This document shows positions 23,740 to 26,483 of a stretch of DNA of 64,000 nucleotides, piece after piece. Origin of the DNA: Thermogemmata fonticola (lineage in GTDB: Bacteria; Planctomycetota; Planctomycetia; Gemmatales; Gemmataceae); the NCBI RefSeq assembly GCF_013694095.1, contig NZ_JACEFB010000005.1:62001-126000 (forward strand), in the 5' to 3' direction. Under the pieces are notes generated by a model. That model did no database searches and was not told the origin of the DNA. It saw only the letters and a program-made list of their open reading frames with translations. Within the stretch, counting starts at the first letter, position 1. The number at the start of each line of letters is the position of its first letter. The position numbers and the translations under genes were made by a program.

Positions 23740-24177
23740 AACTTCACCCAATCTCACGCGGAAGCACTCGCTCCCCACCCTGCAACCTGCTCGAAATCCC
23801 CAAGAGGCGAAACCTACCCAAACGGAATCCCTCCTCCCACTTACCAACCATATCCCATCCCCTCCCGCTGCTCAAGCTCACCCCCACCATCCCAGCGAAG
23901 TCAGACATCCACGTACCCGCGGTGGACCGGGACAAGCCGCTCTACCTCTGCAAATCTGCGGCTGTCAACATCAGGGATAGGACGGGTTGTTCCACCTCAC
24001 CTTGTCAATTGTGGCCTAGAATGGTTAGGGTGATCCAACCTTCCGGAACATCCCGGCTTAGAGAGGGGAAGGTTGCCGGTCATACCCCTTGGGGGCCAGC
24101 GAATACCGTCTTAGGCCACAAGGCGAAACGTCTATCTGTTGCGAACCTCAACCACGATATTGTTTTATGGAATCACA
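23740..24177. other. Divergent intergenic region with a 9-bp hairpin
   Basis: About 440 bp between the divergent SecA-like and LOG genes, with no supportable gene. CAACCTTCC at 24036-24044 is the exact inverse of GGAAGGTTG at 24067-24075 (9-bp stem, 22-nt loop), in the leader of the LOG gene. No T-tract follows it, so it is not a standard terminator. Promoters for both flanking genes should lie here but none could be assigned. Confidence 0.5.
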
Positions 24178-25236
24178 ATGATACAGGAGTCTCAACCGCT
24201 ACCGCGCACTCCCTTTCATACTTCCCTGGACGGTGAAGGCGGGGAAAGTTCAGCCGCGCGTTCCTCGACCGCACCACCGGATGTAGAGGATTATGCCCTC
24301 CAGATCAAGGAAACGGCGGACAAGCTTTTGCACGACCAGGCCAGCCGGGGTGACATGCGCCTGCTGGCCACAGCGGTCCGGGAGCTGCGCTATTGCTTCA
24401 AGATTTTTTCTGCCTATCGCCACCGGCGGAAGGTGTCGATCTTCGGTTCTGCTCGGACCCCGCCGCAGCATCCCGCCTACAAGGCGGCGGAAGAGTTCGG
24501 ACGGCGAATAGCGAGTGCAGGGTGGATGGTCATCACCGGCGCCGGCAGCGGCATCATGGAAGCTGGACATCGCGGCGCGGGACGGGACGCCAGCTTCGGA
24601 TTGAACATCCTGCTGCCTTTCGAGCAGGCGGCCAATCCCGTGGTCCAGGGCGACCCCAAACTGGTCACCATGCGCTACTTCTTCACCCGCAAGTTGATGT
24701 TCATCAAAGAATCCGACGCGGTGGTGCTGTTTCCCGGCGGCTTCGGCACCCACGACGAATGCTTTGAAGCGCTCACCTTGATCCAAACCGGCAAATCACA
24801 CCTGTTCCCCATCGTTATGGTGGATGAACCGGGAGGAAACTACTGGCAACTATGGCAACGCTTCATCCAGGAAGGACTCGTGGACCGCGGCTACATTTCC
24901 CGCCATGATACCTCCCTCTACCGTATCACCGACTCAGTCGAGGAAGCGGTGCGGCAAGTGACCAGCTTTTACCGTGTCTATCACAGTCTACGCTACGTGC
25001 GGGGGGAATTGGTTCTGCGCCTGCAACAACCGCTACCTCCCGCCCTGTTGCAACGCATCCGCGAAGAGTTCCGGGACATTCTGAGCGGAGGAGATTTTGA
25101 GCTTCTCCCTGGCGCCCTTCCTGAAGAGAGCAATGAACCGGAGCTAGCCCACCTGCCGCGCCTGAAGTTCCGCTTCCAACGGCAAGCCGTCGGACGCCTC
25201 CGGCAGCTTGTGGACCTCATCAATGCCGAGGCCTGA
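24178..25236 (+). CDS. LOG-family (TIGR00730-like) Rossmann protein
   Basis: A 352-residue protein with the LOG (lysine decarboxylase-like) fold. The nucleotide-binding strand VSIFGSARTPP, the GAGSGIMEAGHRGA loop and the diagnostic PGGFGTHDE (186-194) are all present, the last containing the PGGxGTxxE motif. Proteins with this motif hydrolyse nucleoside 5'-monophosphates or cytokinin ribotides. It is longer than the minimal 180-residue LOG proteins, with a helical N-terminal region (about 35-80) and a C-terminal extension, as in the larger subgroup. ATG 24178 is chosen; a TTG at 24139 would add 13 residues. The physiological substrate is unknown. Confidence 0.87.
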   Translation: MIQESQPLPRTPFHTSLDGEGGESSAARSSTAPPDVEDYALQIKETADKLLHDQASRGDMRLLATAVRELRYCFKIFSAYRHRRKVSIFGSARTPPQHPAYKAAEEFGRRIASAGWMVITGAGSGIMEAGHRGAGRDASFGLNILLPFEQAANPVVQGDPKLVTMRYFFTRKLMFIKESDAVVLFPGGFGTHDECFEALTLIQTGKSHLFPIVMVDEPGGNYWQLWQRFIQEGLVDRGYISRHDTSLYRITDSVEEAVRQVTSFYRVYHSLRYVRGELVLRLQQPLPPALLQRIREEFRDILSGGDFELLPGALPEESNEPELAHLPRLKFRFQRQAVGRLRQLVDLINAEA

Positions 25237-25431: not shown

Positions 25432-25465
25432 AAAAAAACACGGGGCGGGAACGCCCCACCCCGTG
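25432..25465 (-). terminator. Intrinsic terminator of the candidate RNA
   Basis: On the minus strand CACGGGG (25459-25465) pairs with CCCCGTG (25439-25445), with additional GGG/CCC pairing inside after one mismatch. It is followed directly by seven T residues (25438-25432). This is a textbook rho-independent terminator with no coding gene ending just before it. Confidence 0.8.
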
Positions 25466-25700
25466 ACCAAGCCTACTTACGGGTCCCGTCCATCCCTTGG
25501 GTAGCCTGGCTGCTTATCCGTCCCCCCCTCGGAACGGAATAAGCCTAAACCGAGATAGCTGTAGGAAGCCGGCAAGCTGCCTGATCCTCCTTCAGCATCC
25601 GGGGCAAATCAGGCATGTCGACTGGCTCGTGCGGCTGCTCCCAACGCACCGGTCGACCCTGGATCACCACCGGACATCTCTTACCTAGATCACGGCAGGA
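25432..25700 (-). ncRNA. Candidate structured non-coding RNA, unidentified
   Basis: Read on the minus strand, this gene-free stretch contains a string of exact pairings. They are: an outer stem GTCGAC/GTCGAC (25652-25657 with 25617-25622) enclosing GTGCG/CGCAC (25645-25649 with 25629-25633); TGCCTGAT/ATCAGGCA (25608-25615 with 25578-25585); GCTTAT/ATAAGC (25539-25544 with 25512-25517) extended by CCGT/ACGG; CCAGGCTAC with GTAGGCTTGG and one bulge (25501-25509 with 25467-25476); and a terminal hairpin with T7. CTCGG at 25550-25554 can also pair with CCGAG (25528-25532) in the loop of the third stem, which would be a pseudoknot. The 5' end is approximate. It does not match the cores of tmRNA, RNase P RNA, 6S or SRP RNA that I can recall. 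No minus-strand gene follows, so it is more likely a trans-acting RNA than a riboswitch. Confidence 0.55.
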
Positions 25701-25931
25701 CGCGATGCAAACGAACTGAGGGAAAAAAATGCAAAAATCACCGACAGCTTTTTGGGGAGAACAAAAAAAATCTCGTGAGGACGAACTATGGCCTGCGGCG
25801 AACCGACGAAAGGATGCTGCTGCGGAACGGACAGGAGAGCAAAGGCCAGAAGAGCAAGAGGCACGAAGGTTGGGAGCGGTCCCGAACCGAGGCCCCAGAT
25901 TTCGTCACAAACGCTACGATGGACGGATTGT

Positions 25932-25994: not shown

Positions 25995-26483
25995 TCAGCG
26001 TACCGGGCGGTTGGCCGCGGTCGGCACGCCATGCTCCCACTCAGTAGGAATGGGGCGCCGGGTGGTTTCCCCCAGGTAGTGCCAGTAGGACACGTTGTTT
26101 TCACCAAGACGCCAGGAGAACGCGGCAGGCCGACCCAGGATCTTCGTGGGGAAGTCGACTTCCCCGACCGTATCGTCGACCAATTGTACGCCCAAGCCCT
26201 GCAACTCGCTCAGAGCATCCGCAAACGAGCGCTCCGCGGAGGCGATCTCCTCATTGATTCGGTATCGGCGCTGCCGACCCCTCCAATCCAAGTGACGGCG
26301 ATTGCGGTAAAGCTGTTCCTGTTCCGGCGTCAGTTGGCGGATCGTGCGCCGGTGCTGTACCAGGTCATTGACAATGCTGGCTACCAACGGCAACATCCGA
26401 CGAGCGGTTTTCAAATCCAGCACGATCGGTTTGGATCGTGGCTTGCCTGCCGGATTGGTAGCACGATGGGGTGTCTGGCTCAT
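25995..26483 (-). CDS. DUF2203 family protein
   Basis: A 162-residue cytosolic protein. The N-terminal part contains LDLKTARRMLPLVASIVNDL and a charged helical segment (about 45-95). The C-terminal core has VQLVDDTVGEVDFPTKILGR and SWRLGENNVSYWHYLGETTRRPIP, which fit the conserved VDFP...GR...W..GE..i.yWH pattern of DUF2203. Function of the family is not known. GGGAG precedes the ATG. Its transcript runs leftward towards the candidate RNA at 25432-25700 and could be continuous with it, though a separate promoter is more likely. Confidence 0.85.
   Translation of the reverse strand: MSQTPHRATNPAGKPRSKPIVLDLKTARRMLPLVASIVNDLVQHRRTIRQLTPEQEQLYRNRRHLDWRGRQRRYRINEEIASAERSFADALSELQGLGVQLVDDTVGEVDFPTKILGRPAAFSWRLGENNVSYWHYLGETTRRPIPTEWEHGVPTAANRPVR

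Follow-up and report, generated by a model that had tools for sequence, protein, structure and literature searches.

The question raised by this locus is whether a gene-free stretch of the minus strand encodes an RNA of its own and, if so, what such an RNA might do. The stretch lies in a window of 64,000 nucleotides of Thermogemmata fonticola DNA (the window being the whole of the DNA analysed), and an initial annotation made from the letters alone had proposed a structured RNA with its own terminator at this place. Structure was indeed found there: the folding energy is below chance in comparison with shuffled sequences, both with the terminator (z = -4.7) and without it (z = -3.2), and the terminator hairpin with its T7 tract is present at 25465-25432. 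The terminator and the 5' half contribute part of this signal, and the 95-nt core by itself has an unexceptional energy (z = -1.5), so that the case for the core rests on conservation and covariation and not on energy.

The signals that would delimit a transcript recur in relatives. A TTGCNN/CTANNT pair with a spacing of 16 is found at most of the loci compared, with TTGCAT as the commonest -35 element, and a T-run follows within 75 nt 3' of the core at 59 of 61 loci. The minus strand from 25676 to 25432 thus looks like a real, unannotated RNA that would run from promoter to terminator (Table 1). T-rich tracts are also seen right upstream of the promoter, at 25722-25770 in the window and at the equivalent place in relatives; they could mark the end of the upstream gene's transcript or be a promoter element.

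Table 1. Features of the putative RNA and its upstream neighbour (window positions)
Feature	Position	Strand	Remarks
Predicted transcript	25432..25676	-	about 245 nt; start placed from the promoter, end from the T-run
Promoter -35 element TTGCAT	25705..25710	-	from sequence; recurs across loci
Promoter -10 element CTAGGT	25683..25688	-	spacing of 16 to the -35 element
Variable 5' domain	25548..25676 (start approximate)	-	strongly folded; occupies the place of the form A aptamer 5' half
3' domain as matched by model R1	25463..25547	-	95.4 bits in the window's genome
Hairpin with conserved GAGGGG loop (25525-25530)	25512..25544	-	equivalent to the P3 tip of the form A aptamer
Conserved helix, 5' arm GCCAGGCUAC	25501..25510	-	in form A also the P3 3' strand
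Conserved helix, 3' arm GUAGGCUUGGU	25466..25476	-	helix 91% paired, 55 sequences
GGG-AUGGACGGGA-CCC hairpin	25481..25496	-	near-invariant; most conserved piece
Intrinsic terminator	25432..25465	-	11-bp stem, then T7
DUF2203 gene (neighbour, outside the RNA)	25995..26483	-	upstream; Pfam PF09969

Comparison of 25432-25700 (minus strand) with all Rfam families gave only chance-level matches, in keeping with the proposal of an independent RNA outside the described families, and the whole 64-kb window has zero matches at gathering scores. The housekeeping RNAs that the annotation had been unable to recognise here were rejected on the same grounds, tmRNA, RNase P and SRP RNA having no Rfam match at the locus and 6S RNA no RF00013 match. 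A 6S-like RNA, possibly the genome's real 6S RNA, was seen on another contig (C1:795369-795580; 41.9 bits against a cut-off of 46.4). A small open reading frame within the conserved segment (AUG GAC GGG ACC ...) was considered and rejected, since the frame is shifted in L094 and others and the stops differ. Literature on small RNAs of Gemmata and other planctomycetes and on stand-alone c-di-GMP RNAs, in a coverage outside which most subscription journals fall, yielded no title or abstract on this RNA, and the c-di-GMP-I-GGC family, which becomes important below, is merely listed among models in the literature examined.

The element is conserved. By DNA search, 47 genomes from a set of 99 that included the window's own have the 3' half, and R1, a covariance model of that 3' half, matches 64 out of 95 genomes in the window's family, in 28 of 39 genera and nearly always as one copy. 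Outside the family, R1 matches in the wider class sample were confined to two genomes of the same order and three from family f5; a sample of 391 further genomes from the phylum had none. Named matches to a 20-base core include Gemmata, Limnoglobus and Fimbriiglobus; beyond the planctomycetes this motif gave only isolated matches of 24-27 nt, at 23 bits or less, which were taken as chance. Extra minimal copies were noticed in two Gemmata-group genomes (L083, L084 and L085), consisting of promoter, 3' domain and terminator, with only about 29 nt in these paralogues from the -10 box to the 3' domain.

Within the 3' domain, two structures are supported by compensatory changes. The CCAGGCUAC/GUAnGCUUGG helix is 91% paired over 55 distinct sequences from both forms of the RNA (see below), its covariation score exceeds that of all 500 shuffles and of slid pairings, and the helix together with the inner GGG/CCC stem is 93% paired, versus 22-47% when slid. 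The 7-bp stem of the GAGGGG hairpin is 94% paired, with double changes at six of seven pairs and a covariation reached in none of 500 shuffles; possession of the loop was a condition for inclusion in that alignment, which is the sole reason for its invariance there. Of 61 loci, 50 have GAGGGGG in the matched stretch; the loop is altered in some form A members (L105, L107, L109, L114 and L120), and the conserved helix is poorly kept in a few relatives (L071, L110). The window's core folds into just these two elements, the GAGGGG hairpin and the conserved helix.

The initial annotation had suggested a search of relatives for compensatory changes in its stems. The hairpin and helix of the 3' domain covary; the stems of the 5' half (approximately 25548-25676) lie in sequence that is unalignable even with a genome of the same genus. 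A pseudoknot proposed between CTCGG (25550-25554) and CCGAG (25528-25532) can be paired on paper, but it is not conserved; CTCGG occurs at the equivalent place in two of 33 loci, the window included, where 2.0 would be expected by chance.

The relatives differ in their 5' half. In 24 of 60 relatives, here called form A, the 3' domain is preceded by an aptamer of the c-di-GMP-I or c-di-GMP-I-GGC type. Each of the 14 form A loci tested scores above the gathering threshold of RF03167 or RF01051 (54-73 bits), and none of the aptamer-less loci tested does so. The aptamer stems are 97.8% paired, and form A retains, by alignment, the counterparts of G20, A47 and C92 in the Vc2 aptamer, which contact c-di-GMP in its crystal structures. 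By Rfam score and by stems, form A relatives thus qualify as c-di-GMP-I(-GGC) riboswitches, and they would be expected to bind the ligand. The two forms are homologous, and alignment places the GAGGGG hairpin of the window at the P3 tip of the aptamer. The P3 3' strand (CCAGGCU) and the P1 3' strand (CGAAGG) of form A run straight into the near-invariant GGGAUGGACGGGACCC, and the near-invariant 3' domain falls outside the Rfam aptamer model.

At the remaining loci and in the window (form B), unrelated hairpins or almost nothing replace the aptamer 5' half. The window sequence has neither a P2 stem with a GNRA loop nor the GGCAAAC...GACGCAAAGC core, and the c-di-GMP-I(-GGC) families give no match to this copy even at E<=10. 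A hairpin with a U-rich loop (e.g. CGCAGUUUUUGUGCG) recurs in the 5' domains of many form B loci (L098, L092 and L118 among them) and is also present in the form A locus L009; it is absent from the window.

Form A occurs in an outgroup, family f5 (L070-L072), which makes it the likely ancestral state. Since genus g13 also contains both forms, the aptamer seems to have been lost, probably on more than one occasion. The direction of change suggested by these distributions, from A to B, would make the window copy a derivative without the sensor. Form A genomes have more GGDEF copies (a mean of 4.8 versus 3.4; p = 0.0003 by genome, 0.03 by genus), in a comparison that takes no account of genome size or shared ancestry. 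The window's own genome and the same-genus genome G001, from a lineage without the sensor, have one GGDEF match each, among the lowest in the family. A c-di-GMP-I-GGC sensor is still present elsewhere in the window's genome, at L032 (C2:264706-264805; 70.8 bits), where a separate, bona fide aptamer is followed by what seems to be a diverged start of the 3' domain, with an ATG about 360 nt further on that may start a gene.

How might aptamer and 3' domain be coupled? In form A the aptamer stems and the conserved helix (90.4% paired) share one strand and are mutually exclusive, because the nucleotides on the 5' side of the helix also belong to P3 and P1. For form A without ligand, the computed stability of the helix state surpasses that of the aptamer state by a mean of 6.4 kcal/mol. 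A KD of about 1 nM is quoted for the c-di-GMP-I aptamer class (PMC3627812), and ligand binding could plausibly pay for this gap. In form A alone, covariation of the conserved helix does not exceed that of shuffles, as expected if the strand is tied by both structures, and also as expected if the helix has no separate role there.

In the simplest model that we can offer, a stand-alone regulatory RNA, about 245 nt long, would be transcribed from its own sigma-70-like promoter and end at its own intrinsic terminator. Its conserved module would be the 3' domain (GAGGGG-loop hairpin, conserved helix and GGG-AUGGACGGGA-CCC hairpin), serving as an effector that probably acts in trans, and its sensor module, a c-di-GMP-I type aptamer forming the 5' half, would be found only in the ancestral form A. 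Binding of c-di-GMP to form A would break the conserved helix and so change the way in which the effector is presented. With the aptamer 5' half missing from the window and most relatives, the helix should form permanently, and loss of the sensor in form B, the window's lineage included, would have left the effector in its ligand-free shape for good.

The gene neighbourhood bears on this model and on a competing one, in which the RNA is a cis-acting leader (a riboswitch in form A, an attenuator in form B) with a conditional terminator, controlling for example secA. The initial annotation had noted that no minus-strand gene lies close downstream, and this was confirmed: the next one is a SecA-like ORF at 23847-21703 (714 amino acids as listed), and a convergent LOG/'lysine decarboxylase' ORF on the plus strand (24139-25236) intervenes, which leaves no cis target in the window. 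In several Gemmata-group genomes a SecA-like gene is directly 3' of the RNA. A cis leader would account for the riboswitch aptamer in form A and for a SecA-like gene on the same strand in these genomes and within 4 kb in seven of 36 form B relatives. However, the loci as a whole have no consistent cis target: of the 55 loci with a downstream ORF within 1.5 kb, 25 have the nearest one on the same strand (9 of 24 for form A, 16 of 31 for form B), an orientation that is approximately random and so argues against cis-regulation, and no downstream gene is common to them. Furthermore, the terminator stem touches at most 1-2 bases of the conserved helix and neither aptamer stem. We therefore regard the cis leader as improbable. 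The annotation's view that a riboswitch role is unlikely survives with regard to a cis target, but it had not anticipated a c-di-GMP-I aptamer at orthologous loci, with a P3 stem whose tip corresponds to the hairpin of the window; its preference for a trans-acting RNA is probably right, given the random orientation.

The commonest neighbour is the DUF2203 gene, which lies upstream of the RNA at 33 of 60 loci, in every case in the same orientation, and the RNA could be imagined as its 3' UTR. This seems scarcely credible, in that a conserved promoter-like pair separates the gene from the RNA and the other 27 loci have no detectable DUF2203 gene upstream in the stretch examined. Taken together, the promoter-like pair, the T-run, the mixed downstream orientation and the upstream DUF2203 gene fit an independent, probably trans-acting RNA. 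Such an RNA might still serve as a sink or store of c-di-GMP, as proposed for the Bdellovibrio merRNA, and not as a regulator of targets; form A resembles merRNA (PMC3627812), since both are free-standing RNAs that contain a c-di-GMP-I aptamer and lack a cis gene. We find a sink very unlikely for a family in which the 3' domain is conserved at least as well as the aptamer and persists without it in the window and in most relatives. One specific form of the preferred trans-acting reading is that the RNA titrates CsrA, with c-di-GMP altering exposure of the binding sites in form A. Two ANGGA motifs (AGGGA and AUGGA) occur in the GGG-AUGGACGGGA-CCC hairpin and the base preceding it, tolerated changes in AUGGA fall mostly at the N position, where C or A replaces U, and the window's genome has three CsrA genes. 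The motifs are disrupted in two members, however (AGGGGUGGA in L088 and L081), and conservation reaches well beyond GGA. Since CsrA is found in all 95 family genomes, with or without the RNA, its distribution neither supports nor excludes it as the partner, which would be a guess from the motifs; a CsrA sponge seems rather doubtful to us.

The reading that we favour, and consider somewhat more likely than not to be correct, is that of a trans-acting RNA in the style of EutX and merRNA that was switched by c-di-GMP in its ancestral form and has lost the sensor here. The broader proposal of an order-wide family, in which a c-di-GMP aptamer would control a trans-acting effector by helix competition and repeated loss of the sensor would leave a constitutive RNA, is more tentative, and we put its chances slightly short of even. 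Riboswitches that control a trans-acting RNA rather than a gene are rare, and in this case the same effector is found in relatives that have the sensor and in others that lack it, which makes an effect of c-di-GMP on the RNA testable by comparison. Gemmata-type planctomycetes also gain a conserved regulatory RNA to look for, and some c-di-GMP-I-GGC aptamers in Rfam would be part of a larger stand-alone RNA.

Three known systems provide the closest parallels. Loci homologous to this one have the P1, P2, GNRA loop and P3 of the c-di-GMP-I and c-di-GMP-I-GGC aptamers (RF01051, RF03167); the window copy, unlike these, lacks the aptamer 5' half and is detected by neither model, and the RNA adds a conserved 3' domain, ends at its own terminator and has no consistent regulated gene. 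The merRNA of Bdellovibrio, the sole genus from which it was reported, is likewise a free-standing RNA that contains a c-di-GMP aptamer and has no conserved gene downstream (PMC3627812); a role as a c-di-GMP store has been proposed for it. Judged by sequence, form A would combine an aptamer with a putative promoter and terminator of its own and no cis gene. The window copy lacks the aptamer, and the RNA described here, unlike merRNA, keeps its conserved 3' domain even then. EutX/Rli55, an adenosylcobalamin riboswitch controlling a trans-acting small RNA, also has a ligand aptamer upstream of the effector part of a stand-alone, trans-acting RNA (PMC5821096), an arrangement that we infer for the present family with respect to trans action. 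Ligand class and effector are different, and EutX is shortened by ligand-stabilised termination, whereas the switch proposed here would be a refolding of the full-length RNA.
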